DNA of 64,000 nucleotides from Tetradesmus obliquus (lineage: Eukaryota; Chlorophyta; Chlorophyceae; Sphaeropleales; Scenedesmaceae). Shown piece after piece: positions 1 through 64,000 of the stretch. The stretch lies in NCBI GenBank assembly GCA_030272155.1, contig CP126196.1:1054001-1118000 (forward strand), in the 5' to 3' direction. The position numbers and the translations under genes are program-made. Every line of letters starts with the position of its first letter. Within the stretch, counting starts at the first letter, position 1. The notes beneath the pieces are model-generated. The model worked only from the letters and a program-made list of their open reading frames with translations. It ran no database searches and was not told the origin of the DNA.

Positions 1-642
1 TTTGCTGCGGCTGCCTGCTACTGCATGAGCATGTGCATGTACCTTATCAAAGGCTTCCGAAGCTGAGTCAGCTGCTTCCAGGACATGACCAGCCCTAACG
101 AAAATGAGGCTTACGCCAATAGCAGCACAGCAGCTGAGTAATTTTCATCTTACTGTGACGACGGCTTTGGTGGTGACATGATGATGATAATATGACTGTG
201 ACGTGTATTGCCGATGCTCTTGCAGGGAGGCAAGGGCTTCAGCTGCTTCCAGGACTTGATTAGCTCGACAATTCCAGGTTTCAACCGTTGCTGATGATGG
301 ATATAGCTTATATCTCAATTTGCCATCATGATGTTCTGCCAACTGCAGGGAGGCAAGGGCTTCAGCTGCTTCCAAGACATGACCAGCCCACACCAACGAG
401 AGATTCTGCAAAGAACTGACCCTGCCCTGTTGACGATGCTGCCGCCATGCTTGCAGGGAGGCAAGGGCTTCAGCTGCTTCCAGGATATGACCAGCCCCAG
501 CGACTTTGAGTCATATGCAAATGGCAGCACAGCAGCAGTGGCGCCTGTCACCCGCAGCAGCGCCGTGCGAGCCGGGCCGGCACTGGAAGCTCTGTGGCTG
601 TGTGCGGCTGCAGCCGTGCTGGGCGCTGCTTTAATACTGTAA
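1..642 (+). CDS. 3' end of an unrecognised gene with GPI-anchor-like C-terminus (partial)
   Basis: The last exon is seen at 457-642, after an acceptor ending TTGCAG. It begins with the residues GGKGFSCFQDMTSP and ends with a hydrophobic tail (LWLCAAAAVLGAALIL) directly before the TAA at 640-642. A small-residue stretch followed by a C-terminal hydrophobic segment with no charged end is the usual layout of a GPI-attachment signal, so a surface-anchored protein is inferred. The rest of the gene lies left of the window or in unrecognised exons. Three partial copies of the same exon start lie upstream, and the first of them reads to its own stop at 139-141 without the hydrophobic tail. I do not recognise the family. 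It could also be a single-pass membrane protein. Confidence 0.5.
50..395 (+). repeat. Three partial copies of the terminal exon start
   Basis: Diverged copies of the exon beginning at 457 lie at about 68-141, 225-262 and 345-395. The second and third keep the CTTGCAG- or CTGCAG-type acceptor and the GGKGFSCFQD codons. The first reads CFQDMTSP, runs about 15 codons further and stops. If used, it would give a C-terminus without the hydrophobic tail. Confidence 0.7.
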
Positions 643-1018
643 CGGCTCATGGAGGCAGCATTGCAGACACTCGAGACTAGATGGCTGTTGGCCGCCAACT
701 GGTTGGGTTGAATTGAATGGGTTGTGGGTGCGACACAGTTTCACTGTTGCTGCTGTGGTGCAGAGCTGATGGTGGTACGCAGTGTTGCTATGGCGTCTTT
801 TGTAACGGTGAAGTGACTCTGAGTCATGGGATCTGCCAATGTCAGCGGCAGACTTGCAGCGGCGTGGGCACATTCATGGCGGCTGTTGACTGCGTCTATA
901 ATTGAGAGAGGGCAGTTACTAACTGTAGTACATGTGAATCCTGGCACCATCGCAGGTCTAGATGGTATGACATTACATTACATTACATGCTCCACTCAAC
1001 GAGGAGTGGGAGCCCCAG
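643..1018. other. No gene recognised
   Basis: Follows the stop of the first gene and precedes the stop of the minus-strand LRR-like fragments. A short ATTAC simple repeat lies near 970-988. Nothing else is recognisable. Confidence 0.4.
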
Positions 1019-3438: not shown

Positions 3439-6400
3439 GATGTTGCACGAGCTGAAGCTCCCGGCAGATTCCCTGCTGCATATCAGTGTGCGTTACTGGC
3501 ATTCACACAGCTTGAACAAACCCAGCGTGCCCTGCAATGGTGCATTGATGGTGTTTGTGGCCTTACAGATGCTGCTATTAACCACAAGCGGCGCATGCCG
3601 TCACTCACACTTAGCATACTCGATTGCGCCTGCAAAGGGATCGCAGTTGGTGGCGCTGCCTGCAATGATGTTTTCAACGCCCCGCCGCAGCAGCGGAGTC
3701 ATGGCCTGGTTGTCATGGCCGCCGCCATCCCCAAACTTGGCATCGTTCACACCTGCAGCAGCAGGCAAGCAGGGCTGGCTGTTTCAAAACACAAAACCTG
3801 AAAGACAATCAGTGCAGCAGAGTCATGGCCTGGTTGTCGTGGCCACCACCATCCCCAAACTTGGCATCGTTCACACCTGCAGAGATGCGACAGCAGACCT
3901 TGCTTGATTACGCAGGGGAGTATGAAGGAGCAAGCCTACAGCCGCATCAACTGCAGTCTGTGCTGATGCAGCGCTACATACATGCATATAGTCTTGCAGG
4001 CAGGAGTGCCGTCGCATGCCTTCCGTGGCCGCCCCAAGCCATCAGAGTGCTGTTGCTGTACTACATGAGAGAAGCTGGTTGAAAGTAACAACATACCACA
4101 TGTCAGTAACAAGTAACATCCCACCTTTGAAGTCCCACAGGTTCCAGTAGTCAAATTCTTCAACTGACAGCAGCTGCTCGCGCCCCTCCTTGCCGCCCTG
4201 TGTCTTCTGCGCCACGAATGATGACGACACGCCCACTGCTTGCACCAGGCCCACCACAGAACTCGATGATACTGTAACAGCCTGCAATGAAACAAGAGGA
4301 AAGTGGTGTGGTTGTTGCCCAGAGGTGCTCATTGACCGTTTCCAGTATGTGGCATGTCACATGCCACATACTGCACATACCGAATGTGAACACAAAACGC
4401 TCAAACCCCTGGTGCCGCGCTGCAGCTGCACAAACAAACCTTGGTGTGATGTCACTCGACGGCACACAGGTCAGCTGTACATGCAGGCACACATCCGTCC
4501 CTGTCCCCTACGCCCCCGCGGTTGATCCAGCAGGAGGGCTCACCTTCATGCCGTTTGGGCTGACCACGCCAGCAGTAGGTGGCGCGCTGTTGAAGCCCAG
4601 AGGCTCCACCATGCCCCCTCCCAGTGCCACAGGCTGCGTGTCAAGCTGCAGTGGGGGCATACCATAGTACAGGGGGCTGAACTCAAAGGGGAAGAACTTG
4701 CGGGGGTTGTTTTGCAGGATGAGGCTGCCGAGGATGATGGGGAAGGGCCTGCGCGGCAGCAGCAGCAGCAGCAGCAGCAACAACGGCAGCAGCTGAAGTT
4801 ATGGTTCTGGTTACGCTTGAGTTACGCTTGAGGGAAAGAGCTTTTACATGTCAGCTTGTGGAATGAAGCTGCCGAGGATGATGGGGAAGGGCCTGCGCGG
4901 CAGCAGTGGCAGCAGTGGCAGCAGCAGCAGCAGCAGTTGTGCTGGTTGCACTCAAAGGGGAAAAACTTGCGGGGGTTGTTTTGAAGGACGAGGCTGCCAA
5001 GGATGATGGGGAAGGGCCTGCGCGGCAGCAGCAGCAGCGGCGGCAGCAGCAGCAGCAGTTGTGCTGGTTGCACTCAAAGGGGAAGAACTTGCGGGCGTTG
5101 TCTAATGGATGATGCTGCCGAGGATGATGGGGAAGGGCCTGCGCGGCAGCAGCAGCAGCAGCAGCAGCACGTGTTTACAAGCATTATGGCATGATTGAAG
5201 GAATGACAACTCAGCACGGTATAAACTCGGATGCGCTGGCAATGGTGATCTTCATATCTGCTCCAACATGCGCAAGACAGCAGCGGAGCGAACGGTGCTG
5301 ACAGGAACACCTTCGAGATCACTTACCTGTCCTGTGTGCCTGCTGTCAGAAAAGGAATAGATGGTGCCTGCTGCGAAACACGTTCGTGCATGCGGCCCCT
5401 TGTGCCCAGGGTCGTCACGCTGCTGCGCGCCGCACCCACAGCAAAGGGGTCTAGGAAGGCCTCCCCTATGGCGTCAGACCAGGCGCGCACGCGCTCGCCA
5501 CGTGTCGCTGCAGCGCAAGTGGCCAGCAATTCATCCAGATCAATGCCTTTGGTGAAGTGGTGGACAGACCTGTGGCGTTAACACGACTCGAACACTGTGA
5601 GTGTACCTGCAGAGGAGTTGGATGCTGATACACGTTGCATCGCTGCCCTCACCACACCTCTACAGCATGCCCCTGTCCCACTGCTGCCTGCAGCCCGCCA
5701 TTGCCAGCACGCACCCAGGTCCAGCAGCGTCTCCCGCAGGATCTCCATCACGGGTGCGGCTTTGTCCACTGCCTCGCCGTAGCTGCCGGGGCTCAGGGTT
5801 TGTGCTGCTGACGTGTCCAGCTGCTGCGGAGGGATGTAGGGCCCAAAGAACTGCTTCAGCGGCACCTGCATCATAACACAGTAGATAGACAACAGCTTTT
5901 TCCTGTTGTGGGTGTTGACTTGTTGACGATGCTTGGAGATGTTGTAAACACCTGTCAGCACATGAGACACAAGCAGTGCACAGAAAGGGGCGCCATGTAC
6001 GATGCCAGCTGCACATGTACTGTTTGCACCTCTGCTGCTGCCGCTGCTGCTGCTGCTGCCCCGCCCACCTGTGTGTAGCTCATGGCACCACTGAAACAGC
6101 TGTCGCCACAGTGCATGATGCCCGCTGCACAAGTGAGAGCCACAGCAGGTGCTGCCACTGCTGCTGCTGCCACTGCTGCTGCTGCTGCTGCGCAGCCTGG
6201 CCCTGTGCCTACCTGTGTGTAGCTCATGGCGCCGTTGAACCAGCTGCCGCCGCTGTTGCTGGCAATGTACCTGGCCTGCTGCAACACACCCATCTGCAGC
6301 CAGCAGCGCACACAGCGCAGGCACATACTGTGTTTAGTAACGCACTCATGTGGCGTTCCACAACTCAGCAACCTGTCAGCAGCTGCAGGCAGGTGGTACG

Positions 6401-9539: not shown

Positions 9540-11226
9540 ATGCTGGCTCAGAAGATCTTTCACCCGTCGCATAGAAGCAATGCATTGAGGCACCATCAGC
9601 GTTGCATCAGCAGCCTGCCATCTAGGGTTAGCAGCAGCAGCAACATCAGCAGAAGGCGGGGGGCAATCCTTGTGCGCACAGCTGATGAAGTGAAGGTGGA
9701 GTTTGACTTGGCTGTGCCACTCAGCAGCCCCCAAGGTGTGTGCATGCATGCAGCACAGCACACCATGCAGAGTTGGCAGGCTGGCTACCGCAAAGAGCGA
9801 TGCTTGGTGTTGGTGGGAAACGTGTGGAGGCCTTCAACTAGCCTCTCCCCTGCTGCTGCATGGCACATGGCTTAATGCGAAACTTAATGTAACGCTCCAA
9901 TTGTCGCAGTCACCAACAGCTTCAATGTGGAGCCTCTCCAAGCGTTTTTGGCATGCCAGCTCAGCAACAGCAGCTAAATTGGCGGGAGCTCCTGGAGCTT
10001 GCCTCTAGGTGCTCCTGAGATTGTTGCGTCTCAGGCCTGCAACATGCTACATCACAATGTGCCACAATGCATACTTGCATACGTATGCAGGGTCGCAGCT
10101 GGCTTACATCCTCAGCAATGGCGAAGGCAGCGAGCTACTCATGTTTGAGCCAGCCGTGAAAACCTACCTCACTGAGCTACAGCAGGAGCGAGATGCAGAA
10201 GCAGCAATGGAAGCAGAGGCAGCAGCAGACGCAGCAGCAGAGGCTGCGGCAGCAGCAGCAGCAGCCAGTGAAAGTGGTGAAGGGCAGGGTGCTGTGGATG
10301 CGTCATCCACCTGGGATGATGCTGAGCTGATGCGCAGGATCAGGGCTGTCAGGTGCGTTGACTGAAGTTGTTCCGTGGTTTGCACTTTCAGTTTCAGCCA
10401 AGCCCTTGTTGTCATGCTTTTGGTGTCATCAAGTTGTTTTGTCAGCTGCTGTTTTGAGGATGCTTATCTCTGCTCGCAGGATTGCTCCTGCTGATGTTGG
10501 CAGCAGGCGAGACTTGGCTTTCCTTCAGCAGAGCATGGCAGATGGGTGCACTGCACATCATGCTATGCTGTGTCTAACAGCAACTGTCGCTGCTTTACTG
10601 CCTCTACTGCTTTCTCTCCGCCTGCAAACCTACAGAGAAGCAGAGCGGGGCCAGGTTGTGGCAGACATCCTCCACCAACCCACCAACCCACGACCCTACA
10701 TCATGCTTTGCTGCTCCGCCGTTTCTGCTACTTTTTCTCTGACTGCAAACCTGCAGGGAAGCAGAGCGGGGCCAAGTTGTGGCAGACATCCTCCGTCCAG
10801 TGCCATTTCACAGCCTCACAGCGTGCTTTTGCTGCTCTGATCTCTCTGCTCCTGTCCTGTATCTCTACCCGCACGTTACAGGGAAGCAGAGCGGGGCCAG
10901 GTAGTGGCAGACATCCTGTATCTAGAAGTAGCAAGGCAGCTGCAGGCAGCCGGCATGCAGCTGCTGAACAACCTGGCACTGCTGTCCCCAAACATCTCAC
11001 AACCGCCACCAGACTTCATGTCTGCTGAGCGGCTGCAGCAGCAGCAGCAGCAGCAGAGTGAAGACAGCAGCAGCAGCAGCAGCAGCAGTGGTTGGGTGTC
11101 GCCTGCTGTTGCGGATGCGATTGTATCTTACCTGGCAAGTACGTTTGAGGGCGGTGACGCGCGCATGATGGATGCAGCAGCACCACCGGTGACGCCGCTC
11201 AGTGTGGATCGGCTGCAGGTGAGAGC

Positions 11227-37765: not shown

Positions 37766-38232
37766 CTGACGTTGCCGTGCTGGTGATCAGCAGCCGTAAG
37801 GGAGAGTACGAGACGGGCTTTGAGAAGGGAGGGCAGACGCGAGAGCACGCGCAGGTGCGCCGTGTGCAGTGTGACATGCGCAGCAAACAACAGCACACAG
37901 CCAGGCCGACACAAAGGCTGCACGGCAGTTGCTGAGAGACACATGCACAGCAGCTAATCAGCTGTGCAGCGAGCTAGAACACTCTTCAGTCACGCTGCAG
38001 CAGTGGGCGGGCAGCGCAGCTGTCGTGTGGGTGACAGCTAAGCAGTTGGCTGCCCTCGACTGCAAGGATGCATGCAATGCACTTCTGTACTAACCAAGCA
38101 CTTGCTGAACCCTCTGCGCCCGCACTGCTGCTGCTGCTGCTGCTGCTTCAACTGCAGCTGGCCAAGACGCTGGGTGTGGTGAAGCTGATCTTGGTGGTCA
38201 ACAAGCTGCACTGACGCATTTGCTGTGCCCGC

Positions 38233-38272
<40 letters not shown>

Positions 38273-40180: not shown

Positions 40181-41141
40181 CTGCACCAGGTGATGCCCAA
40201 CAAGCTGCGGGTCAAGGTGGAGGGCATCTTCAGGGATGAGCAGGAGAGCACCGCAGCAAAGGCGGGAGAGAACCTGCGCCTGCGCATCTCAGGTGCGTGC
40301 GTGCGGTGTGGCTGCATGAGGCCTGGCAGGTGACTTGAGGGCCAGCCAGCACGCCACTCAGCTAGGTGGCTGCTGTATTGATCTGTCTTGGGCAGCGCTG
40401 AGTTGCAGCGTCACATCGCCAGCTGTCCTGGTAAACTTTTGCGAGTGTTTGTGTGCCTGCAGGGCCGTTGTTACACGTCAGCTACGCATGACGCCGTCCC
40501 TCCTGGTACGCCTGCCTGTGTATGCACACGCCAAGTTGTTGGCTCACTGCACCATGTTGCACTCTTCACCCCTCAGCAGGCCAAGCCTCGTAGCTGCTCT
40601 TCACCCGCGCACTGCTCCTGCCGCCTTTGCTGCAGGCGCTGAGGAGGGTGACGTGCAAACGGGCTTTGTGCTGTGCAGCATCAGCAACCCAGTGCCCATG
40701 GTGAGCACCTTTGAGTGCCAGCTGGTCATCCTGGAGCTGCTGGAGCACAACCCCATCTTCACAGTGGGATACAGGTCAGTGGGAAGTTCATGGTGTGAAG
40801 TTCATAGTCACATGGTGAACAAGGTCGTGCAGTGTATGCATGTTGTGGTCATCCTGGAGCTGCTGGAGCACAAGCGCATCTTCACAGTGGGCTACTGTGG
40901 AAACTTCACATTGGGGTTCTGGTGTGAACTTGTGCCAACAAGAACTTCACAGTGTGGGAAGTTCATGGGCGCATGTTGTGCGAGAGTGTGACGCGCAAGC
41001 AGGCTGGCTGTCTTGGCTGTGGTGGCGCACAAACTGAAAAGGTAAACGGAGTTTTGTTTCTCTCTAGCTGGGGCCTGTTCCTCTGCGTATGAGCTGTGCA
41101 GCATCACCCTGCTGTGCACAATGGATCCTTGCTGTAACATC

Positions 41142-41173
<32 letters not shown>

Positions 41174-41686
41174 AGGAGTGTGCTGCACATTCACACCATT
41201 GTGGAGGAGTGTGAGGTGACCAAGCTGGTGCATGCAGTGGACATGAAGACCAAGGAGCCCAAGAAGGTGAGCAGGCGGCATACTTGTGTTATTTAACAGT
41301 CATAGTGACATGTGACAGTGTAACATCTGAGTGTGAGTGGTGAACACGCTGGTGCACTCTGTGGACATGAAGACCAAGGAGTTCAAGACGGTGACATGCA
41401 TTTGCGATAGATAGTATAACATGACCACCGCATCACCATGAGGAAGCCCCCCAATCCTTTCTCAACTCTGAAACCACTGTGTAACTGGCTTTTTACTCAT
41501 TTTTCACATCCCCAACAGGTCAAGTACGTCAAGTCTGGGGCCATGTGTGTGTGCCGCATCACCATGGAGAAGCCCGTGTGCATCGAGACGTTTGCCGACC
41601 TACCCGCCATGGGCCGCTTCACGCTGCGCGATGAGGGCCGCACCATCGCCATCGGCAAGGTCACCAAGCTGCCCAAGAATCACTAA
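36489..41686 (+). CDS. eRF3: Eukaryotic translation release factor 3 (GTPase)
   Basis: Ten exons: 36489-37331, 37765-37854, 38394-38488, 39047-39176, 39502-39566, 39849-39960, 40190-40292, 40636-40774, 41176-41266 and 41519-41686, giving 611 residues with all phases agreeing. Residues 1-~170 are a Pro/Ala/Ser-rich extension with FNAPSFVPG-like short repeats. This precedes the GTPase domain: P-loop GHVDAGKST, switch GITVEVG, DAPGH and [20 protein letters not shown] and [17 protein letters not shown] are diagnostic of eRF3 rather than eEF1A or Hbs1. Beta-barrel domains follow ([20 protein letters not shown] to [11 protein letters not shown]). eRF3 delivers eRF1 to ribosomes at stop codons and couples GTP hydrolysis to peptide release. 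The N-terminal extension is not Gln/Asn-rich as in yeast Sup35. Most introns contain echoes of adjacent exon edges. Confidence 0.97.
37693..37764 (+). repeat. (CTG)n tract forming an eRF3 intron 3' end
   Basis: A nearly continuous CTG tract of about 70 nt, with a few interruptions, runs directly into the acceptor CCAG of exon 37765-37854. Confidence 0.9.
38100..38393 (+). repeat. Two echoes of the NKLD exon start in the eRF3 gene
   Basis: Two units of about 121 bp, each a (CTG)n run, CAACTGCAG and about 60 nt of exon, precede the real exon at 38394. They encode [18 protein letters not shown] and [18 protein letters not shown], each then a stop. The real exon reads [20 protein letters not shown], so both echoes diverge just before the Asp of the G4 motif. 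Confidence 0.95.
38920..39308 (+). repeat. Echoes on both sides of eRF3 exon 39047-39176
   Basis: At 38926-39000 a copy of the exon start ([18 protein letters not shown]) follows its own CTGCAG acceptor. At 39258-39308 a copy of the exon end (LYGHNV...VTPD, with small changes) is followed by a GTGAGTGG donor. Confidence 0.92.
40020..40060 (+). repeat. Echo of part of eRF3 exon 40190-40292
   Basis: Encodes [12 protein letters not shown], matching [12 protein letters not shown] in the following exon, about 170 bp upstream. Confidence 0.65.
40117..40189 (+). repeat. (CTG)n tract forming an eRF3 intron 3' end
   Basis: About 20 CTG units, with one TTG, end in CTGCACCAG, the acceptor of exon 40190-40292. 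Confidence 0.9.
40845..40910 (+). repeat. Echo of the end of eRF3 exon 40636-40774
   Basis: Encodes [17 protein letters not shown], a near copy of [17 protein letters not shown] at the end of the preceding exon. Confidence 0.92.
41330..41460 (+). repeat. Echoes in the last eRF3 intron
   Basis: At 41336-41395 the codons [14 protein letters not shown] plus a GTGACA donor-like site repeat the end of exon 41176-41266. At 41425-41455 CGCATCACCATG...AAGCCCCC repeats a fragment of the next exon (CRITMEKPV region). Confidence 0.85.
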
Positions 41687-45388: not shown

Positions 45389-47801
45389 GGGGCCATAGCA
45401 GCAAGAGTGTCAGCTTGTAGTCAACCAGCAGTGACCAGGGTGGGGCCACACAGCTCATGCGTGTTGAGTGTCACATAGAGGCGCAATTCTGCCGTGCGAG
45501 GAACTACAGCTGCTGCTGGTGAAGAGTGCTTCTAATGCGCTTGTTTTCTGAAGCCAACCTGCTCACCTCCTCACTCTCTGCGGGTGTGGGCGCTGGTGCT
45601 GCTGGCCTGTTCTTGGCTGCGCTCTCATACGCGGACGAAGCCTCCTTCTTCAGGCCTGCCGCGCGGCTGGCAAAGTCGCCTGCAGGAAAAAGTAACAAGA
45701 TTTGAATTTGGTGATGTGACAGCTGGGCAAGTGTCAGGGCAAGTATGTTGGTGCAGCGGCCGGCACACATGGAAGGCACATGCTGCGACTCCTGACATGC
45801 TTAGTCAGCTGCACTTCTTCTTCTGCTGCTGACTGAAACTAGGTGGTGAAGATAAAAGGTATAAGATGTTTGTGCAACGACCAGCAGTGGAGCTGCTGCC
45901 AAGCAACAGACATGGCAAGTCAGCGATGGTGGCTTACTGGCAGGTGCAGGTGCAGGTGCTGCCGCTGCCGCTGGTGCTGCAGCTGGTGCTGCCTCGCCAC
46001 TTGCCCGCGCAGCAGCCTTCTCGCGCCTGTGGCGGCACAGCAGACACATCATACAATGACAACGGGCGGGCAGAGAGCTTGAGTCGCATACACCGGGTTA
46101 CGTGCTGTATCTGTCATCCACCAAATGACTGTTACTTGCTCCCACTGTGTGCTGCGTCTTTTCACTGCCAAGCCTTAACCCGCCAGCAATCACCTCAGCA
46201 CTACAGGACTTGCCCATGCCCCTAAGGGTTTAAACACCCTGTCTCAGCAACACATGCATACGCTTCAAAGCCACAGTGAGAGTGTTTGTCTGTCTGAATG
46301 CCAGGCCGTGTTGCGAACTGAACAGGCTCTGTGATGCTGCGCTTCTGCCTGTCGACTATGATAATCAAGTAACCGCATTTGTGTGCACAAAAAGCCACTG
46401 GTTTGAAAGATATCTGTGCATATGGTGCAGACTCACGCCTCGCGCAGCAGCTCGCGGCGCCTCTCCAGCTCAGCTTGGCGCTTCTGGTAGGGAGACATCA
46501 CCTGCGGCAGATACATACAGACACCCGGCCGCTGTTGGCGCTTGTCGTGTGTAGTACACAGCATGTACATGCCAGTGTGCAGTATGCTGTGGTCAGTCAG
46601 GGTAGGGACGCATCACCTGCGGCAGCGGTAGACAGAGGTACCCAAGTATGACGTTTGTGTTGAAGCAGCAGGTATGTGTGGGTTATATCAGCCAAGCAGC
46701 AGAGCTCAGTACCAGGTGTTGGAGCTACCATGATGCACACGGCTGTCAGCATGCTGCGGAGAACTGCTGCTGCTGCTGTTGGTTGCCTATGCAGCAGCTG
46801 CTGGCGGCCTGACCGCACGCATGATGCACCACCTGTGTCTAGAGATGCCTCGTACAGGGCTATGCTGTTCTGAGTGCTGCTGCCGCACCTCCTTATCGTC
46901 TGTGCGTGCTGCAGCATGCAGCATCTGAGGTGTACAAGGCACAAATGGCGCAGCTGAAGTAAAAAGGCAGTTTGATAAGTCGCTGGTGCTGCTGCCGCAC
47001 CTCCTCATCGTCTGCGAATGCTGTCACCCCATTGCCAGACACAGCTTGCAGGACCACAGGCAATACAAACCATGCTGCAGCTGCTGGCCTATCCACACAT
47101 GCAACTAAAACCATAGATGCGGTTGCCCCAGTGCTGCTGCCGCACCTCCTCATCGTCTGCGAATGCTGGCGGCGCGTACGCTGCGTCCATGGCGGTAGCA
47201 CCAGACAGCGTCACCGCTGCTGCCAGCAGTGACGGTGCCAGGCGGTCAAAGAGGGTGACCTCCTGCAACAGCAGGACAGGCAATGCTTGAAGGTGCGCAG
47301 CTTTGCATTTTTCATGCTATACTGTCCATATTTACAATGATACAGTAGTACACTGTGAGGGCAGCACAGTCACCAGGTGACTTGACTGCAGCAGCGACAA
47401 GCAACTAGTTTCCACCGGCGACAGGTAGACTGCAGATATTTAGACGCAGTGTGGTAATGGTTTTACTACAGGCTGTAGGATGCAGCAGTCAGCGGCTGTG
47501 CAAGATGCAACAGGAGGCTCAGCTGCTGCTAGCAGCAGCACCAGTAGGTTCCAACACTAGTACTAACCCTGCCAGCCTCCTTCAGGTACTTTTGTTGCCG
47601 CATACAACAATAATGCCACCGCAAGCAAGCAATTGTGCACCAATGAGCGTACGGGGAGGGAGTGCGGGGCAGATCCATGTGCTGGTGCCTCACCTGGCCC
47701 CTGCTCGCCCTGCTGACCACAGCAGCACGTGCTGGGCGTGCAGCGGAGCGTGTGCCAGCAGCACCAGCCTTGAAGGCGCGTGACTTCATTGCCAACGCCA
47801 T
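43921..47801 (-). CDS. Unknown plastid protein with thylakoid-lumen-type leader and one C-terminal helix
   Basis: Exons right to left: 47694-47801, 47146-47262, 46437-46501, 45938-46026, 45567-45679, 45208-45339, 44609-44668 and 43921-44205, giving 322 residues with all phases consistent. Residues 1-~35 are basic and acid-free (transit-peptide-like). A hydrophobic stretch follows (LAPSLLAAAVTLSGATAMDA) ending APPAFA-DDEE, a typical thylakoid processing site, so export into or across the thylakoid is inferred. The middle has a charged helix (YQKRQAELERRRELLREARE) and long Ala/Pro spacers including a PVPV run. Near the C-terminus one membrane helix (LGEILVLGSYIGLGLAVTKY) precedes an amphipathic Lys/Ala/Glu helix. 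I do not recognise the family. A role tying a luminal or stromal partner to the membrane is possible but speculative. Confidence 0.78.
46595..46620 (-). repeat. Echo of exon 46437-46501 start
   Basis: Repeats CTGCCGCAG-GTGATG and TCCCTACC of the VMSPY exon start, about 100 bp upstream. Confidence 0.7.
46875..47025 (-). repeat. Two echoes of the end of exon 47146-47262
   Basis: Copies of the AFADDEE codons plus the GTGCGGCAGCAG donor region lie at about 46990-47022 (TAFADDEE) and 46878-46912 (ARTDDKE). Confidence 0.88.
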
Positions 47802-52383: not shown

Positions 52384-55300
52384 GCAGCGGCAGCGGCAGC
52401 GGCCCAGCTGTTGATGCGCAAGGTAATTCCAGCACAAGGCACTGCCATGCTGTATGTACATTCGGTGCTGTTAAGTGCAGCATCACCGAAGGTGTGGCTG
52501 GCTGTGACTGCTGCATTTCTGGTGCAACACATATCGATCCAGCCCACCGGCGTCCGCAGTCAGTAATGTCACAGACTGCAGACAGCATAACTGCTGCTGC
52601 CCGCCACACTGCTGACCCATTGCCTTACTTGTTGCCGTGGCAAGGAACGTGTGGCTTTGCTGCTGCTGCCCCTCGCTTCTGCTGTGTACTGCAGGCAATG
52701 CCCTTTCCAGCCCTCTGCTGCCGCTGCTGGTGTGCTTCCACCTGCTGTGGAGCGCAGCAGGCCTCAAGCTGTGGGCCAGGAGGGAGGCAGCACTGAGGCA
52801 GGCCTGGCGCTTAGACGGCAGCAGCAGCAGCAGCAGCAGCAACAGCGCTACATATCCTGATAGGGCATGGAGCAATGCACGCCCAGCAGCAGCAGCAGCT
52901 GCAGCAGCGGGGCCTCTGACAGCACCTGCAATGACAGCAGCAGCAGCTGCCCCAGCACCTGCCGGTCCTGCAGAGCAGCAGGACAGCCTGTCTCCTCTGC
53001 CTAGTGCTGCAGCAGCTCTGGTGGCAGTAGGCCGGCCAGCTGCTGTGATGGGTTCTGCTGCTGCTGCTGCTGTTGGAGGCTCTGATGATTTAGCCGGTCC
53101 TGTAGCAGCAGGGTCTGGGCTGGACTTGGCTGCTGGCATGAGTGGTGGGCTGGGGCCTGGTCAGGGCCTGAGTGCAGCCAGCCTTGAGGTGGCTGCTGCT
53201 GCTGGCGTGAGGAGGGAGTACACAGGTGGGCAGGGGCTTGCACTGATTGGCTTGGTGCTTGAGTGTGAGGTGACTTGGCGCTTGCAGGGCCTGAGTGCAG
53301 CTGGTCTTGAGGTGGCTGCTGCTGCTGGGGTGAGGCGGGAGTACACAGGTGGGTGGAGGGGCTGTCGAAGTGATTAGCTGGCATGGCATGTGCATACTGC
53401 CACAACCGCTTTTGGGTGATGGTGGGTGGTCAGGGCCTGAGTGCTGCCAGCCTGGAGGTGGCTGCTGCTGCTGGCGTGAGGCGGGAGTACACAGGTGGGC
53501 AGGGGCTGGCATTGGCTTGCTGCTTGCATTGGCTTGGTGCTTGAGTGGTGGGCTGGAGCCTGGTCAAGGCCCAAGTGCTGCCAGTCTTGAGGTGGCTGCT
53601 GCTGCTGACGGGAGGCGGGAGTACACAGGTGGGCAGGGGCCCTGTGGGAATGGGTGGGTGCACACAAGCGGGTGGGTGGGTGGGTGGGCGGATAGGGCGG
53701 GTGCTTTGTGCATGTGGCTGTATGGTCATGAACAGGCATGTGCTGTTACGCCATGTGTATGTGGCTGTATGGTCATGAACGGGCATGTGCTGTTACGCCT
53801 CGCCACTCACCACTCAGTTTCGCTCGTGACGCTTGCGTCAAGCCCGGCGCTCAGCTACGCACTTTCGTCCATGCTGCCTTCACCTCCGCTGCTTTCCACC
53901 TGCTGTGCCATCCTCTGTGATCCCCTGCTGCTGCCCTCACCAGTGCTGCAAACGCCTGCAGGCCGCTGGCGCAACAGCCCCACCGGCCACCAGGCACTAT
54001 CCCTTCCACGTCCACGACATCCAACCCCTCGCCTTGCTGCTGTATCGCACTGCCCTGCAGGCCGCTGGCGCATCAGCCCCACCAGCTACCAGCCAGCACT
54101 GCTGCCACACATCTGCTCCTTTGACCCCTCTGCTGGACAATCCTGACTCATCACCCTGCAGGCCGCTGGCGCATCAATCCATTCACACACCAGCCCGAGC
54201 TTCTCAGCTCCCCAGCCCAGCAGCTGCTACGGCTGCTGGCCTCAGCAGCAGCAACAGCGCTGCTGCTGGCGGCGGCTGCAGCGCTGCTGCTGCTGTGCCT
54301 CAACCTGCAGGGGTACATTCCCCCTCAGCAGGCGCGGCTGTACTGGAGGAGCTTGGCTGCTCTGAGTGCCCCTGGTGGCTGGTTTAGCAAGGACAGCGGA
54401 GCTATTGTGAGCCAGGTGTGTAAGCAGCCATAACATGCTGCCAATATGGTACAAGTTACTGCTACTGCCATGCAGTGCGCATGGCTGAAAGGCGTCGGTA
54501 GAATGCTTGTTACAAGCATAGTAGCGTGGCTTTGATCATGCACTGCATCTGCAATGCCTGCTGGTTTGTTCCAGCGTGCAGTGGCATTGTCGTGGGCAGT
54601 GCTGCTACTTTGGCTCTTCTCATCGCCAACAGCCAACGCCACTGGTTGCTTGTTGCTGCAGGTGCCGTTGGTGGTGCGCTCTGCTGTCACCATCCTTTAC
54701 ACCTCCAATGTATATGGGTGAGTGCCGCTGTTACCATGCAGCTGAGGATCCTTGCCATAATGTTTATCGTGCGCAGCTTGCCTTTGCATTACATTACAAT
54801 ACTTTACATTTTTGCCTGGTGTTTGACACCCGTTTCATTTGCTTTCACTAAGCATACTTTATGTTTGTGTGGTTCCCTGCAGGCCTGCAGCGCAGCTGCT
54901 GACGCGGCTGGAGAACCACCGCACGCTAGAAGGCTTTGCGGCGTGCCTGACAGCCAAGCAGGCGGCGCTGCAGGTGCTGTTCACCTTTGGGCCCGTGGCC
55001 TACGTGGGGCTGGCAGGTGCGCCTGGCAGAGCTTGTTTCTTGGTGAACTTTTGGACTGTTTACAATTACTGGCAATGCAGCCAGCCGTTATGAAGTCAAC
55101 CTCTTAGTTGAAAACAATTGCCATTCGCTAATGCTGCTCCTGCTGTTGTGGCAGAGACGGCGGCCTGCCGTAGCGGTGTAGTTACGATATGATCAGTATG
55201 TTGTACCTACTGCAATACCTTTGGTGGTTTGGTTTTTGTTGCTGCTCCTGCAGGTGCCGGTGCTGCTGCTGCCAGGTCTGAGGTGGCTGCATTCTTCAAA

Positions 55301-56042
55301 GTTGGGCTGCTGCAGGAGCTGCACACAAACAGCCTCTGCTGCAAATAAAAACTCAGCAGTATGTTGTGTTTGCTGCCACGCAGGTGCTGGCGCTGCTGCT
55401 GCCAGGTCTGAGGTGGCTGCTTTCTTCAAGGTTGAGCTGCTGCAGCTGGACACAAACAACCCCTGCTGCAAATTAAAACTAGCAATATGTTGTGTTTGCT
55501 GCCACGCAGGTGCTGGCGCTGCTGCTGCCAGATCTGAGGCGGCTGCATTCTTCCAGGTTGAGCTGCTGCGCAGGGCAGCCATGGAGCTGCTGCTGCAACA
55601 AACTCAGTGAATATTTTTTTTGCGTCTGCTGCGTTGCAGGTGCCGGTGCTGCTGCTGCCAGGTCCGAGGTGGCTGCATTCTTCAAGGTAGAGCTGCTGCA
55701 GCTGGACACAAACAGCCTGTGCTGCAAGTCAAAACTTAGCAACCTCTGCTGACACATGAATGCGCTCATTTGTGCCTTTGCTGCCGCTACAGGTGCTGGC
55801 GCTGCTGCTGCCAGGTCAGAGGTGGTGGCATTCTTCAAGTTTCAGCTGCTGCAGCTACGCACAAACAGCCTCTGCTGAGGTGAACCTGCTTATGTGTGCG
55901 GTTGCTGCAGGTGCTGGCGCTGCTGCTGCCAGGTCTGAGGTAGCTGCTTTCTTCAAGGTTGAGCTGCTGCGCAGGGCAGCCATGGAGCTGCTGCTGCCAT
56001 GGGCCTCAGCAGCAGCAGCAGCAGCCAGGCGCCGCAAAGCAG

Positions 56043-56087: not shown

Positions 56088-58968
56088 CAGGCACAGCTGA
56101 ATCAACACAGCAGAGGAGTGGTGAGATGGAGAAGCAGAGGGATGATCGTCAGCAGAGTTCAGGCATGGGCACAGCCGGGGTGCAACAGACAGCGGGTGTC
56201 AGGCAAAGCCGGCGCTGGAAGGCAGCAACTGGTGCAGATGTGGCAGCTGCAGAGAAGGCAGCAGTGCTTGCAGCAACAGCACCCGCAGCACCACCCGCAG
56301 AAGCAGCAGGTCAACAAGGTCAAACGATGGTCAAAGATCATGAGCCAGCAACAGCAACAGCAGCAGCAGCAGCAGGGTTGCCAGACAGTGAGCAGCTTCT
56401 GTCAGAGCTGGCTCGCCCCCGCTATGATGCCTTCACCGACTTCTGGGACATGAGCAGGGACATGGGGTGAGCGCCTGCTGCTGCTGCTGCTGCTGTGTTG
56501 TAACTATCAGGATGCTGCTACTGCTGCACCTCTCTGCAGCTGACAGCTGTCACCAAACGGTGCAAGGCAATGCACGGTTGTGATGAGGCACCCGCGTGTA
56601 GCGCCTGCAGGATGCGGCATGGATTTGCTGTGCTGTAGCTTCATCGTCTTCTGCTGCTACTGATGCTTTAAACTGCACTTGTGCGAGCTTTCAAAGCTGC
56701 CTATAATTGCCAAACTTTGGAAACTCATTGCCTGCCCTGCCCTGGCTTGCTGCTGCAGCTACCTCACCCTCTTTGCTGCGGTTTTCCCCGCAGCCGCGCC
56801 GCTGTGCCTGCTGCTGACTCTGGTCAAGCTGAAGCTGGACTGCCTGAGGCTCACTGCGGTGCAGCAGCGGCCCGTGCCGCTGCAGCTAGCGGGCATTGGG
56901 GCCTGGAACGGCGTGCTCACTGCACTGGTGGGTGGCTGGCTGCTGCAATGCAAGCCTTTGAGGACATGCGCTCACGCGTGCACAACTTCTGGATGTGTCG
57001 CTACTGTGTGCTGATCACTGCACTGATGGGCGCTGGCTGCAGCGCTGAACGTCGAGGCTGCCGGTATTGTGATCGTGTGTCTTTGTTTGTTTGCGACTTG
57101 TTGGTTATGAGATGAGCAAAGTAGCCTGTGCCACTGCAGCTGTCGGGCATTGGCGCCTGTAACGGCCTGCGCACGGCCCTGGTGGGTCCTGCGCTGGCTG
57201 CCGTGCTGCACGCCTCTTTTTAAGGCGTGCAGCGCAGCAGCCAATGCAGCACCCACCCAGTGGGGACACAAGAAAATACTATGTTCTATAGTATAGTTTA
57301 TAGCACAGGACACTATGATGTCCCCAGTGGGGATGCATGAACAGTATAGCCTATAGTAGCATGCTGTCCTATGGCGTCCTGCAAGCGGGCGGCTGGCTGC
57401 TCGCTGCACTGGTGGGCAGCTGCCTGCAGCCTGCTATTCTAAAGACCCAGACAACTCGCAGCTTTTCAAGGAGGAGCCATACGGGTTTTTTTTGTATATT
57501 TGATGAATCGTGGTTGGCAGAGCTTGTTGTAGGGGGAAAGGCGGGAGTCTGCAGGCCTGGACTGTCGGTAGTGTTGGCACATCTGTTAGTTTGTGGATGC
57601 CTGCGGTAAGGGTAGAGAACATCATGCTGCAATGGGAAGCAGCTGCAAGGAGAAGTTGCACCCGGCAGGTTCTACAGGCTGTCTGCTAGTTGAGCTGTCC
57701 ACATGTCACACACGAGTGCTCTGTCACTGACGCACATCCAACAAACGTCCATGGGTATATAATTACTGTACTGCTTCTTCCACTTCTCCTGCAGGTGTTT
57801 GCTTCTGCCAGTACCAACGTTTTCCTGTCAGCTCATTCTGCCGCTCCACAACAAACTACCACAAAATTCTGCTCGTGCCTGCAGGTGTTTGCCTCTGCTT
57901 CTGCCATTACCAACGTGTTCTTTCACGCGTGCCTACAAACCTGTATACATGCAACACATCAGTGCGGTGTCACTAACCTACATCCAACCACATCCAACCT
58001 TTGTTCACTGGTCCACCTGCAGGTGTTTGCTTCTGCCATCACCAACGTGTTCTCTCAGGCATGTCCCCCGGCCAGCTGGCGCTGCCAAATGTTCACCGTT
58101 CCATGGCAAACTTGTGCTGCTGTGGCTCACCCTGCAGGTGTTTGCTTCTGCTATCACCAATGTCTTCCTATCTGGCATGTCCACCGGCCAGCTGGCGCTG
58201 CTGCTGCCCCGCGCCCTCGTGCCCCCAGCTGTGCAGTCTGCACTGCTGGCAGCAGCAGCGGCACGGCCGGCGGCAGCCACAGCAGCAAGCTCCATCCCTG
58301 TGGATGCTGCTGCTGGGGTGCCTGCAGCCGCACTAGCAGATGGCATGCAGATGTATCATGCGGCATATGGATTAATGGGGCCAGCAGGACTTCCTGGTAC
58401 AGAAAGATTAGGAGGTGCTGGTGGGGTAGGTCCTGTGCTGAGCACTTTGCAGGACATCAGCAGCAGTGCCTCTGCTGCTGCTGCAGCAGCAGCAGCAGCA
58501 GCAGGTGTAGCTGGCAGCGGGGTGTGCAGCAGCGGAGGGCTCGGGCAGGTGCTAGGTTTTGCGCAGGATGCGATGGTGTGCGCAGCAAAGGATGCGCCTG
58601 CTGCAGCTGCCACTGCAGTTGTGCCTGCAGGAGGGGTCGGCATGAGTGGTGCAGCAACTCAGCTGCTGAGTGTTGCAGCAGGGACGGCAGCTGTTGCTGC
58701 TGCTGGTGATGTGGCGGCTGCCGACCACCTGCTGCTGCTGTTTGTGCTGGAGCACCTGCTGCTGCTTGCAATGCTGCTGGTGTACTGGTGCATTCCTGGC
58801 GAGCCTCCAGCAGCGCGTGTGGCAGCCGCAGCAGCATGTGAGCCGCAACAGGCAAGGCAGCACAGCAGGGTGAAGCAGCAGCAGCAGCAGCAGCGCGGTG
58901 CATTTGCACGTGTTCATGGCGACAACCAGACGTACATCAATCCGCTGTTTGTTCCAGTGTGTCAGTGA
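50674..58968 (+). CDS. Anoctamin / TMEM16-family membrane protein
   Basis: Eleven exons: 50674-51084, 51398-51537, 51795-51899, 52220-52422, 52695-53225, 54162-54415, 54662-54717, 54883-55016, 55911-56466, 56759-56927 and 58138-58968, giving 1129 residues with every phase agreeing. Family landmarks in order: YFGSAVGFHLALLNALATWL and LLAPAAVATYLLW (first helices); LVCFHLLWSAAGLKLWARRE; RWRINPFT; ENHRTLEGFAACLTAKQAAL; FGPVAYVGLAG; RPRYDAFTDFWDM; YLTLFAAVFPAAAPLCLLL; RPVPLQLAGIGAWNGVL; ASAITNVFLSG; and a final helix LLLFVLEHLLLLAMLLVYW followed by IPGEPP. TMEM16 proteins are Ca2+-gated chloride channels or lipid scramblases, or ER-plasma-membrane tethers; which applies cannot be told. Loops carry long Ser/Gly and Ala-rich inserts. 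The intron after 51899 has a GC donor (CAG-GCAAGT). Confidence 0.92.
52326..52401 (+). repeat. (AGC)n/(GGCAGC)n tract inside an anoctamin exon
   Basis: About 18 AGC codons followed by GGC-AGC repeats encode a Ser run and GSGSGS in the loop after the first helices. It is in frame within exon 52220-52422. Confidence 0.9.
53154..53630 (+). repeat. Four-copy array of an anoctamin exon end
   Basis: The exon end encoding GLSAASLEVAAAAGVRREYT plus a GTGGG donor occurs at 53166-53225 (taken as real) and again at about 53288-53350, 53427-53495 and 53565-53630. Spacing is about 125-140 bp. Any of the four donors could be used. Confidence 0.93.
53670..53691 (+). repeat. (GGGT)n run with G-quadruplex potential
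   Basis: Five consecutive G3 runs separated by single T residues lie in an anoctamin intron. Confidence 0.8.
53950..54100 (+). repeat. Two echoes of anoctamin exon 54162-54415 start
   Basis: CTGCAG-GCCGCTGGCGCA recurs after acceptors at about 53960 and 54060, before the real exon at 54162 (spacing about 100 bp). The copies share about 12-20 nt of the RWRI codons, then diverge. Confidence 0.88.
55249..55910 (+). repeat. Five echoes of the ARSEVAAFFKVELL exon start
   Basis: Copies with their own CAG acceptors start at about 55252, 55384, 55509, 55640 and 55793; the real exon starts at 55911. Each encodes GAGAAAARSEVAAFFKVELL or a close variant. Two also repeat RRAAMELLL. Spacing is 118-153 bp. 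Linking parts such as CACAAACAGCCTCTGCTG are repeated too, so whole units were duplicated. Confidence 0.95.
57120..57205 (+). repeat. Echo of the end of anoctamin exon 56759-56927
   Basis: Encodes VPLQLSGIGACNGLRTAL followed by a GTGGG donor, a diverged copy of VPLQLAGIGAWNGVLTAL about 250 bp downstream. Confidence 0.9.
57790..58137 (+). repeat. Three echoes of the VFASAITNVF exon start
   Basis: Acceptors CTGCAG followed by GTGTTTGCTTCTGCC-type sequence lie at about 57795, 57885 and 58021, before the real last exon at 58138. They encode VFASASTNVF, VFASASAITNVF and VFASAITNVF. Confidence 0.93.
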
Positions 58969-59475
58969 GTTGAGGCCAGCAGGCTTAGTGGCAAACCGCT
59001 CGAGATAGTTTGTTGTGCAGTGTATGCTGGACTTGTGGGGATTCATCCAAGGCTGTACACATCGCATTGCCTTCAGCAGCAGTGTCGCGTTGTGGTTCAA
59101 AAAGCCAGCTGCCCAACCTTGTTTGTCCAGGGATAGTTGTCAGAGCGTTGCCTGCAGCCCTGTGTAGCATGCAGTTGTAGATGGTTGACGCTGAACTTGT
59201 TGCTATCATTCGGGTGAGCTGTCCTGCAAGAATCGTCATCTGCGGTCAGCGTAATGTTATGCCAACGTTATGTTACAGTCACGTCATTGTGTAACACGCG
59301 TGTGCCATGTGCCACAGCATACCTGTTCCTGGGCCTGTTGCGAAGCGCCCTTGACCAAGATACAGCACATCGTTTAGTTGAGTTGTACCAGGAACAAGAT
59401 TTACATTTGCAGAGCTGTCGCAGACGACAACACCAGCAATGCAGCAGCTGTAGTACTGCTTGCTGCCTGCCAACC
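58969..59475. promoter_or_regulatory. Intergenic region between anoctamin and BUD13
   Basis: About 500 bp between a stop and a start on the same strand. It must hold the 3' end of the first gene and the promoter of the second. Three GTTATG(T/C) repeats lie near 59254-59275. No defined motif is claimed. Confidence 0.4.
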
Positions 59476-62400: not shown

Positions 62401-64000
62401 TTCACTTGCCTGCGCCGTGCACCGCCATTCATGCGCAGATGCAGTTGCTGCAGGGCATAGTGCTTAGGCACAACCCAACCTCACACGGCATGGAGGCTCC
62501 GGCAAGCAGCACTGTCGTGTCACTCTAGAGGATTCTCACCCAATTAGCACTCTAGATGAATCTCACCCAACGTGCTGCCTGCAGTGTTGGCAATCAAGGC
62601 TTCTGCCGTTCACCGCCGCCGCCGCCGGTGCTGTTGCTGCTACTGCTGCCGCCGTTGCTTCTTGATGCCGCTGCCGCCCACAGCTCGCGGGGCTTTGACA
62701 ACGAGGCTGATGCCGAGCTGCGTGACAGGTCACGCCGGGGCGACGCCATGGCACTAATGCATTCCGTTGCCCACAAGCCACCGCCACCAATGCTGCTGCT
62801 GCTGCTGCTGCCGCCGCCCACAGTTCGCGGGGCTTTGACAACGAGGCTGATGCCGAGCTGCGTGACAGGTCGCGCTGGGGCGACCCCATGGCAGGCAAGC
62901 TCAAGAAGAAGAAAGGAGGCGATGGCTTTGACCTGCCACCGCCCCTCATCACTGAAGCAAACAAGGCCATGATGGAGGCCTCAGGTGCGGCTGCTGTTTG
63001 TGTTGTTTCTGGTTTGAGGGAGGAAAGGTGTTGGCGGTTTGCCTGCTTGTGGGCATGTATCTGGCTTGTGTTGTTATGGCCATGTTGAGAGGCGTCAGGT
63101 GCGGCTGCTGCATGCTGTGCTGTTGCTGGTTTGCATGCCTGCGGGTGATGGCTTTGACCTGCCGCCCCCCCCCCCCCCCCCCCCCTCATCACTGAAGCAA
63201 ACAAGGCTATGATGGAGGCCTCAGGTGTGGCTGCTGTTTGTGCTGCTGCAATGTTGTGCTTGCATGCATTTTGCTGGTTTGTGTTGTTGCGTTGCTGTGG
63301 CCATGATGCAGGCCTCAGGTGTGGCTGCTGTTCAAGCTGCTAGCTGCTGTTTTGTGTGTGTATTGCTGGCGTGTGTTGTCGTAGCCTAGATGGAAGCCGC
63401 AAGTGCGACTGCTGTGCTGTTGCTGTTTTGTTGGATGCAATCAATGCTGCCTTGTGTCATGTCACCACATGGTCGTACCTATAAGCAAGCACGCAAGCAC
63501 CCAATGACAACCATGTTTGCCTTTCATCTGCTTTTGCCGCACTGCTTCTGTGTTGTTACTGCTGCTGTTGCCGCAGGCTTTGTGGTTCCTCAGGAGGTGC
63601 CGCACGGCTGGCTGCGGCGCGGTGTGCCTGCCCCGGTGAACTGCTACAACGTGTCATCATCTCAACTGCTTCTGTGTTGTTACTGCTGCTGTTGCCGCAG
63701 GCTTTGTGGTCCCTCAGGAGGTGCCACCCCACAGCTGGCTGCGCCGCGGCGTGCCTGCGCCCGTGAACCGCTACAACGTGTCATCCTCTCATCTGCTTCT
63801 GTGTTGTTACTGCTGTTGTTGCCGCAGGCTTTGTGGTTCCTCAGGAGGTGCCACCCCACAGCTGGCTGCGCCGCGGCGTGCCTGCGCCCGTGAACCGCTA
63901 CAACGTCTCATCCTCTTATCTGCTTTTGTGTTGTTACTGTGGTTATTGCAGGCTTTGTGGTCCCTCAGGAGGTGCCACCCCACAGCTGGCTGCGCCGCGG
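59476..64000 (+). CDS. BUD13: BUD13 homologue, RES-complex splicing factor (3' end beyond window)
   Basis: Exons 59476-59749, 59842-59903, 60275-61221, 61645-61732, 62092-62225, 62824-62984, then one of the copies at 63577, 63700, 63828 or 63952. The N-terminus has KQLQAYLASKYGG, a Lys-rich run (KKKKKKK) and AIGSAVRIVEGD. The long third exon carries about eight RHDSPPDASPPRRG-type repeats separated by Ala runs. Then come LRMGDGTAAGLVSHAQLAEQ, GRGEATVYRDKVTGK, WRGGLAQQR, FDNEADAELRDRSRWGDPMA and FVVPQEVP..WLRRGVPAPVN. These follow the order known for BUD13, whose C-terminal part binds the Snu17/RBMX2 RRM. The RES complex helps activated spliceosomes and the retention of unspliced pre-mRNA. Phases agree through 62984. 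The start ATG precedes the conserved MFTGRSSLRKPEKK region. Confidence 0.93.
61465..61510 (+). repeat. Echo of BUD13 exon 61645-61732 start
   Basis: TTGCAG-GCGTGCTGCTGCTGGGCG continues to GAGGCCACCGCGTACCG, copying the GRGEATVYR codons about 175 bp upstream of the real exon. Confidence 0.92.
61526..61580 (+). repeat. CTGTG pentanucleotide repeat
   Basis: Nine perfect CTGTG units and further imperfect ones, between the echo and the real exon of BUD13. They form part of the pyrimidine-rich intron end. Confidence 0.93.
62678..62760 (+). repeat. Echo of BUD13 exon 62824-62984 start
   Basis: The acceptor CCCACAG plus about 70 nt (SRGFDNEADAELRDRSR) is nearly identical to the real exon start 145 bp downstream. 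The copy ends after GACGCCATGG. Confidence 0.94.
63140..63330 (+). repeat. Two echoes of the end of BUD13 exon 62824-62984
   Basis: At 63146-63226 the stretch GATGGCTTTGACCTGCC, a C-run of about 19, and CATCACTGAAGCAAACAAGG to GGCCTCAG-GTG repeats the exon end and donor. A shorter copy (ATGATGCAGGCCTCAG-GTG) is at 63303-63321. Confidence 0.92.
63577..64000 (+). repeat. Four-copy exon array at the window edge (BUD13)
   Basis: Copies of the FVVPQEVP exon start after acceptors at 63577, 63700, 63828 and 63952 (spacing 123, 128 and 124 bp). Copies 1-3 run about 75 nt, then GTGTCATC or GTCTCATC. Copy 4 leaves the window. The second and third are almost identical over the whole unit, so the duplication looks recent. 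Confidence 0.95.

Follow-up and report, generated by a model that had tools for sequence, protein, structure and literature searches.

Direct local copies of exon edges in Tetradesmus obliquus, with a preferred offset of about 120 bp

The window, a stretch of 64,000 nucleotides of Tetradesmus obliquus DNA that was analysed as a whole, contains predicted multi-exon genes in which partial copies of exon edges, here called exon echoes, lie in the adjoining introns. The genome assembly (104.7 Mb in 17 contigs) has a GC content of 53–61% and is rich in CTG/CAG. Exon edges were taken from an ab initio gene finder whose training set was the same 264 kb; among the predicted genes, only eRF3 and, roughly, an anoctamin-like and a Bud13-like gene have outside support. 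The following echo loci were found in the window:

68..497, plus strand: copies at 226 and 349 of the likely exon start 457, and an older partial copy at 68–134 (self-BLAST, splice-anchored comparison)
3690..3882, minus strand: partial copy pair of 69 bp, 94%, offset 124 bp, with a 55-bp spacer without similarity (self-BLAST)
10602..10917, plus strand: three-copy array, echoes 10636 and 10757 and exon start 10882, unit ∼121–125 bp (tandem repeat call, self-BLAST, splice-anchored comparison)
32700..33333, minus strand: array of 118-bp units across predicted exon edges (tandem repeat call, self-BLAST)
34875..35181, minus strand: exon 35143–35344, its end echoed downstream at an offset of 262 bp (self-BLAST, gene finder)
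38125..38447, plus strand: eRF3 exon start 38394, preceded by echoes 38158 and 38282 at offsets of 124 and 112 bp (self-BLAST, gene finder)
38920..39119, plus strand: eRF3 echo 38920–38996 (77 bp, 86%), a copy of the exon start at 39047 with an offset of 123 bp (self-BLAST)
39135..39311, plus strand: eRF3 downstream copy 39263–39311 of 39135–39184, near exon end 39202, offset 128 bp (self-BLAST, gene finder)
40723..40895, plus strand: eRF3 downstream echo 40846–40895 of the exon end 40723–40772, 50 bp, 94%, offset 123 bp (self-BLAST)
41207..41394, plus strand: eRF3 downstream echo 41329–41394 of exon end 41266, offset 122 bp (self-BLAST)
46874..47168, minus strand: three 38-bp copies, 89–100%, offsets 112 and 145 bp (self-BLAST)
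55239..55970, plus strand: six-copy array, echoes 55254, 55384, 55510, 55640 and 55793 before exon 55911 (tandem repeat call, self-BLAST, splice-anchored comparison)
56870..57215, plus strand: downstream echo 57124–57215 (78%) of exon end 56927, in the intron that also holds the 58138 echoes (self-BLAST, gene finder)
57788..58201, plus strand: anoctamin-like gene, echoes 57795, 57885 and 58023 before exon 58138, 83–97% (self-BLAST, splice-anchored comparison)
62663..62893, plus strand: Bud13-like gene, copy pair of 91 bp, 92%, offset 140 bp, across an exon start as first read (self-BLAST; the gene finder called other edges)
63541..64000, plus strand: full tandem array, unit 124–127 bp, 3.7 copies, 92–93%, continuing past the window end (tandem repeat call, self-BLAST)

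By self-BLAST and splice-anchored comparison, all seven examples listed in an earlier note on this DNA were confirmed; the copies placed there at 38154 and 38275 align from 38158 and 38282. The exon edges given there were also called by the gene finder at 10882, 35143, 38394, 55911 and 58138, but not at 62824 (called 62778–62984) or at 40774, through which an exon 40636–40921 was run; several echoes were called as small exons, and a single exon 436–639 was called at the 68..497 locus. In the set 10636 and 10757 before 10882, the 35 bp that follow the AG were 94% alike, and the five echoes before 55911 showed 86–97% over 35 bp. On the minus strand, 34875–34919 matched 35137–35181 with 91% over 45 bp. 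The Anoctamin match was obtained with a protein hand-joined across the 58138 junction with the echoes left out, and exon 58138–58420 alone gave no family; the Bud13 match was likewise obtained on a hand-joined protein. One predicted gene model (49674–64000) fuses at least two genes, as indicated by its Anoctamin and Bud13 matches. Echoes had been reported in nine genes, a count that was not reproduced: at least one echo-scoring edge was found in 6 of the 13 multi-exon predicted genes of the window, one model being merged.

Alignment of the predicted eRF3 with eRF3a from the PDB placed three echoes outside the conserved protein. Query residues 365–391 (the 38158 and 38282 echoes) and 713–756 (the 40846–40895 echo) were unaligned. 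The prediction also has further unaligned stretches, so that non-alignment is not special to echoes. These three eRF3 echoes give indirect evidence that echo splice sites may go unused.

The window and 19 random 10-kb stretches together gave 806 predicted exon edges, exons shorter than 30 nt being omitted from the scan; at 103 of these edges a direct copy was detected on the intron side, at most 700 bp away. When edges were compared with other loci, 0 of 2418 scored, and the reverse-complement control gave 1 of 806; the echoes are, as had been claimed, too frequent for chance. The stretch L011, which holds dispersed repeats, was left out of most of these counts, yet was part of the gene-finder training, and L010 was retained in all listings but one. 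In a self-BLAST of the window, 79 direct repeat pairs less than 1500 bp apart scored 50 bits or more, compared with 0.2 expected from the density of farther matches. Over 254 kb, ∼254 same-orientation local pairs (1.00 per kb, all pairs inside multi-copy arrays included) were counted versus 3 inverted ones. Chance and low complexity were ruled out as the source of echoes by the far-distance, other-locus and reverse-complement controls.

The earlier note had proposed a comparison of introns with their flanking exons beyond the window, and there too the excess over controls was observed, with 66 of 601 edges scoring in the random stretches and at least one echo-scoring edge in 12 of the 19. The window was somewhat richer (37 of 205 edges; Fisher p = 0.011). 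It was thereby confirmed that exon echoes are real and extend beyond the window. Duplication during assembly is unlikely to be their source, because most copies differ and sit at many places on many contigs. The specificity for exon edges was partial, as one-sided tests also revealed local copies inside introns away from the edges (35 of 1000) and between genes (32 of 1000).

The echo offsets clustered at ∼120 bp plus multiples. The spacing of 118–128 bp first described coincides with the centre of the peak, but the peak itself is broader, covering 95–150 bp. Among 130 nearest pairs, 44 were full tandem units and 86 were partial, their copies separated by unaligned sequence; the term ‘tandem’ in the earlier note thus holds for the former, and simple head-to-tail duplication was rejected as an account of all pairs. 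The median offset was 124 bp for full pairs (n = 44) and 122 bp for partial pairs up to 200 bp, where this class was ended (n = 61). One pair set was restricted to offsets of 80–180 and another to HSPs with at least 78% identity. Copy length and spacer length were anticorrelated (rho = –0.32, permutation p = 0.0095), which fits the offset as the primary quantity. An offset of 95–150 was found in 6 of 18 pairs without coding sequence versus 69 of 111 others (p = 0.037), and this weaker peak suggests that selection through splicing may shape it.

Anchoring of the duplications at CTG-rich acceptors, as had been suggested, was not borne out. Donors (52 of 401) scored as often as acceptors (51 of 405; p = 0.92), and the enrichment of CTG/CAG-type hexamers at the ends of copies was only moderate (stronger motif, 0.32 vs 0.18) and can in part be due to chance extension of alignments. 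The suggested growth of introns was upheld insofar as short local duplications include exon edges together with the splice sites and add intron DNA, but predicted introns with a recognisable copy were not longer: copies were present in 33% of introns of 45–100 bp, 18–24% of those of 100–800 bp and 6% above, the short predicted introns stemming in part from echoes that the gene finder took for exons.

We tentatively favour the reading that echoes arise from a local copying error that is frequent and stays on the same strand, a slip-back or template switch of ∼120 nt, which splicing conceals where it affects an exon edge. While DNA is synthesised or a break is repaired, the nascent strand would slip back ∼120 nt (mostly 95–150), and ∼30–140 nt would then be copied again. 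If copying carried on, a full tandem duplication would result; if the strand returned to its point of departure, a partial copy would be left, with the original intervening sequence as the spacer. Such slip-back copying would occur within genes and between genes. At an exon edge the spliceosome could stay with the original site, and the copy would become harmless intron DNA that drifts neutrally. Exon edges would look special largely because the exon copy is constrained and the pair can be recognised for longer. The copies are local, nearly all in direct orientation, in excess over controls and clustered in offset, partial and full copies having one offset; we infer that the event is a slip-back or template switch, whichever enzyme performs it and whatever sets the ∼120 nt, and that the spacer is original sequence. 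Serial replication slippage, or short-range template switching, would leave partial copies with an unrelated spacer by out-and-back copying; it is familiar from single mutations that cause disease and is not known to dominate at exon edges. Its short-range copying in the same orientation was what we observed (∼254 direct vs 3 inverted pairs), and the common offset and the copy–spacer anticorrelation agree with it. The spacers, mostly dissimilar to the flanks, would suit original sequence, and the CTG/CAG-type motifs at copy ends may be microhomology at the switch points, unless they reflect chance extension. A bolder proposal seems rather unlikely, namely that in this lineage DNA is copied across the genome by one constant physical step of ∼120 nt (e.g. 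an Okazaki fragment or a nucleosome-protected length), and that this process is a main source of both intron DNA and new tandem exons, with coding constraint already acting on some copies.

It is unlikely that the echoes are plain short tandem duplications, made for example when a break with a long overhang is filled in and end-joined, in which substitutions, insertions and deletions erased the intron halves of older units and the exon halves stayed visible. The 44 full units with the same offset agree with this explanation, small tandem duplications are common elsewhere according to the excerpts of PMC8355091, and decay would favour exon edges. Residual spacer similarity on either side at p < 0.05 was present in 13 of 56 partial pairs, with 5.5 expected. 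Among the 14 most-alike partial pairs (at least 92%), 3 had spacer similarity, and part of the partial class may therefore consist of modified full units, but the spacers of the other 11 were no more alike than unrelated loci. When neutral full duplications were simulated with small indels and no large ones, 99–100% of runs were recognised at divergence up to 0.12 per lineage, which implies that the spacers should be recognisable. Partial copies were also less diverged than full copies at codon positions 1 and 2 (83 of 1065 vs 209 of 1538), a comparison of age that is biased, as detection needs partial pairs to be more alike. Decayed full tandem units are disfavoured as the whole story.

Alternatively, the loci could be old tandem arrays of ∼120 bp in which exon-to-echo gene conversion refreshes the exon-derived part and the spacers decay. 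Five arrays in the window, with echo–echo identity of 0.86–0.97 over 35 bp and many upstream 60-bp stretches that align like random sequence, point in this direction, as do the preserved offset of partial pairs and the slight excess of residual spacer similarity. Conversion tracts that end near splice sites would be required, and we consider this explanation improbable.

Filler capture, by which short fragments copied from other places are pasted into breaks during end-joining, local fragments making up most echoes, is very doubtful as the general origin. Two ectopic fragments show that captured filler also contributes: an 86-bp stretch of eRF3 intron and echo has a 100% identical copy in an echo-bearing stretch on contig C8, and a 53-bp stretch that also lies on contig C1 (94%) interrupts one 118-bp unit at 33222–33274. 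However, capture should be blind to orientation, which disagrees with the 3 local inverted pairs, and each of the three spacers tested was without another scored place in the genome, in a search that skips very common words. The spacer 260–343 and the second spacer of the 46874..47168 locus matched only their own places. The spacer as a dispersed element (introner or transposon) was not supported by the three spacers tested. A 207-aa piece of an F-box gene, searched for a paralogous locus, also matched only its own place. DNA searches with 30900–43900, 36400–42900, 54400–58300 and 31000–36000 gave mostly repeats among the ∼40 scored of 1322, 586, 94 and 119 candidates, respectively, and paralogues may remain.

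In echoes less than 10% predicted as coding, the rate at codon position 3 was 1.96 times that at positions 1 and 2 (CI 1.43–2.81, n = 32), about as expected for a drifting echo compared with an exon that accepts silent changes only; the divergence of non-coding echoes is near-neutral. Addition of echoes up to 60% predicted coding raised the ratio to 2.70 (CI 1.95–3.97, n = 46), so that weak constraint on some of them is possible, and copies predicted as coding showed a strong silent-site bias (4.11, CI 3.01–5.94, n = 57). For echoes less than 60% predicted coding with a match reaching within 5 nt of the junction, the core AG was kept in 15 of 19 acceptor-type and GT in 13 of 18 donor-type echoes. 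The median splice score of donor-type echoes equalled that of true sites (6.3 both), and that of acceptor-type echoes was lower (5.1 vs 8.2). It is highly improbable that selection keeps echoes as alternative, decoy or poison splice sites: the kept cores, the donor scores and the silent-site bias would suit it, but not the fit to neutrality or the weak acceptors.

Intron lengthening and the raw material for new exons have so far been mostly inferred from old events. About one in eight predicted exon edges is accompanied by a copy that can still be read close by, at a preferred step, so that intron turnover, splice-site competition and exon birth could be followed in one tractable organism. The cause of a mutational step of ∼120 nt becomes a direct question of replication or chromatin.

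Internal (segmental) gene duplication covers within-gene duplications that touch exons, introns and splice sites. Echoes, which repeat part of a gene locally and in direct orientation inside that gene, conform to it, and add a preferred step of ∼120 bp, high density and mostly partial edge copies inside existing introns. The exon-echo pattern as such was absent among the matches listed in the literature search. The earlier note knew of no named mechanism that predicts the pattern, which is partly wrong: single-case precedents exist (PMC4974935), and introns are known to arise by internal or tandem duplication (PMC3443670). Relative to the excerpts of these sources the density, the preferred step and the partial copies look new. 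As excerpted, PMC4974935 describes a tandem duplication across an intron–exon boundary in a potato RdRp gene, which altered the intron structure and gave a new intron. The duplicated segment spans the boundary, as echoes do, but one gene and one event are described there, compared with the 103 of 806 edges here. Short direct duplications, sometimes with templated insertions, appear in excerpts of two further sources: fill-in by Pol alpha-primase at 3′ overhangs leads to small tandem duplications of less than 100 bp (PMC8355091), and the tandem duplications of helq-1 worms range from ∼100 bp up to 10 kb, the median being close to 1 kb (PMC8654963). Unlike the echoes, these are presented in the excerpts without a ∼120-bp peak or partial copies around unrelated sequence. 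In the AGGT model of intron gain (Rogers; Hellsten 2011; reviewed in PMC3443670, as excerpted), the duplicated exon contains AGGT, and a new intron extends from a GT in one copy to an AG in the next; the tandem duplication is concealed by splicing, as with echoes. In contrast to that model, echoes lie inside existing introns, at acceptors as well as donors, and AGGT does not seem to be needed. After the AG, the echo-bearing exons 55911, 58138 and 39047 begin with GT, and exons 10882, 457 and 38394 with GG or CT.

All seven examples listed in the earlier note of echoes, i.e. partial direct copies of an exon edge with its splice site on the intron side, were found in the window sequence. At distances below 1500 bp, 79 direct pairs in the window reached 50 bits or more, against 0.2 expected from farther matches. 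By BLAST as well as by an ungapped scan, the offset histogram peaked at ~120 bp, with multiples at ~250, 375 and 500 bp. The genome comprises 104.7 Mb on 17 contigs, the window being positions 1054001–1118000 of contig 6, and the GC content of the window was 53–61% in 4-kb steps; 20 stretches of 10 kb, drawn at random from this genome, served as the comparison sample. One of them, rich in dispersed repeats, was excluded from later counts, leaving 19 stretches and the window, in which 103 array clusters were counted, ordinary short-period repeats included. An offset of 95–150 bp was observed in 6/18 pairs without coding sequence, 69/111 mixed pairs and 6/21 coding pairs. Because the spacing peak was weaker in the 18 noncoding pairs, selection by splicing may sharpen it. 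At 12216–12410, a 38-bp unit was repeated 5.1 times with zero mismatches, and this array is very young.

Exon edges were taken from the predictions of a small hidden Markov gene finder trained on the same 264 kb, which gave 550 introns with a median of 190 bp. The donor it learned was (C/G)AG|GTG and the acceptor CTGCAG|(C/G). It matched five of the exon edges of the earlier note, and it labelled some echoes as exons. The eRF3 gene (36489–43886) is outside support, by protein alignment, for the predicted gene models: the alignment to PDB eRF3a flanked the echoes at 38158/38282 and 40846 on both sides and left the stretches holding them unaligned, as it did further parts of the predicted protein, e.g. 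translated CTG repeats. Copies were present in five introns of this gene, at offsets of 112–128 bp. The anoctamin-like and Bud13-like genes had Pfam support, obtained on proteins joined by hand without the echoes.

The comparison of exon-edge copies with controls that the earlier note had proposed did reveal an excess. With exons of at least 30 nt, copies within 700 bp on the intron side and a score of at least 40, 103/806 predicted edges had a copy, against 0/2418 for other-locus and 1/806 for reverse-complement controls. Acceptors (51/405) and donors (52/401) were equal, and the random stretches contributed 66/601 edges. The gene finder predicted 48 of the 103 copies to be coding and 32 to be noncoding, the other 23 being mixed; the coding group includes echoes labelled as exons as well as true tandem exons or protein repeats. 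Among the 32 noncoding copies, 26 began no more than 5 nt from the junction, with the splice dinucleotide retained in 18. In the same test, one-sided, control segments scored in 81/1000 cases for exon interiors, 35/1000 for intron interiors and 32/1000 for intergenic DNA, so the process extends beyond exon edges. When only copies less than 60% predicted coding were counted at edges, 46/806 remained, against 35/1000 for intron interiors with any label (p = 0.03). The exon-edge excess was thus about 1.6- to 3.7-fold, depending on how coding copies were counted.

In 45 echo–exon pairs, mismatches at codon positions 1, 2 and 3 were 54/691, 54/689 and 118/681. For echoes less than 10% predicted coding, the third-position rate was 1.96 times that of the others (CI 1.43–2.81, n = 32). 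Since a ratio of ~2 is expected for a neutral copy compared with a silently changing exon, noncoding echoes drift, or nearly so. The ratio was 2.70 when echoes up to 60% predicted coding were added (CI 1.95–3.97, n = 46), and 4.11 for copies predicted coding (CI 3.01–5.94, n = 57). Coding constraint acts on some copies, which may be new exon modules.

Of the intron bases, ~10% lay in recognisable local copies; the share was ~8% for intergenic and ~16% for coding bases, ordinary protein repeats being part of the coding figure. A gene at 28611–30640, rich in Lys, Pro, Ala and Thr, had near-repeated exons ~460–580 bp apart (71–97% identity). Local copies made up at least 25 bp in 123/543 predicted introns: 33% of those of 45–100 bp, 18–24% at 100–800 bp and 6% of the 16 above 800 bp. 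The intron growth suggested in the earlier note is not favoured in its simple form, because copy-bearing introns were not longer than the rest, a comparison weakened by the short predicted introns, which are partly artefacts of echoes labelled as exons.

The 130 nearest pairs comprised 44 full tandem units and 86 partial pairs, with at least 20 bp unaligned between the copies. Decay of full units into partial pairs would be expected to leave spacers that, at the observed divergence, are still similar to the flanks. Anchored extension exceeded the control 95th percentile in 18% of 56 partial pairs, and local alignment of the spacer was significant on either side in 13/56, against 5.5 expected (2/20, 8/21 and 3/14 at copy identities of 78–86%, 86–92% and above). 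Spacers simulated with small but no large indels were recognised in 99–100% of cases as long as divergence did not exceed 0.12 per lineage. The spacers of partial pairs were mostly unlike their flanks. Divergence was lower in partial than in full copies, a result that detection favours. Full and partial pairs had a common offset (medians 124 and 122), and the spacer was shorter where the copy was longer (permutation p = 0.0095). One act could lie behind both: a slip back of ~120 nt, after which some sequence would be re-copied, and copying would either carry on, yielding a full unit, or return, leaving a partial copy. Microhomology at copy ends was suggestive only.

A tandem duplication over an intron–exon boundary has been published for a single potato gene (PMC4974935), introns arising by tandem duplication have been reviewed (PMC3443670), and mechanisms of small tandem duplication have been treated (PMC8355091, PMC8654963). 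For Chlamydomonas relatives, PMC8226300 describes long introns that lack the usual short peak and calls the advantage of length unknown. No description of the exon-echo pattern was found among the top literature matches, of partial coverage, an absence that argues weakly for novelty.

Inverted local copies were nearly missing (3 vs ~254 direct), which is evidence against orientation-blind capture. None of the three spacers tested had another place among the genome matches scored. Window 38884–38969 (86 bp, eRF3 intron plus echo) was 100% identical to a segment of contig C8 (positions 3001–3086 of stretch L032). There it falls inside a predicted intron that has echoes of its own, and is flanked by an exon on one side and the echo of this exon on the other. 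Window 33222–33274, which interrupts a 118-bp tandem unit, matched contig C1 (L033, 1526–1578) over 53 bp at 94%. Captured fragments thus contribute to the turnover.

Dispersed repeats were also observed. Window 960–1056, with a ACATTACATTACA stretch near one end, matched at least 39 other places (510 candidates) at 96–99% and probably represents a mobile-element end. Window 42961–43060 contained a ~95-bp repeat with at least 38 copies genome-wide (~89–98%). In an intron of the anoctamin-like gene, a ~110-bp stretch at 57429–57549 matched at least 14 other places at 73–76%, and is possibly an old dispersed repeat.
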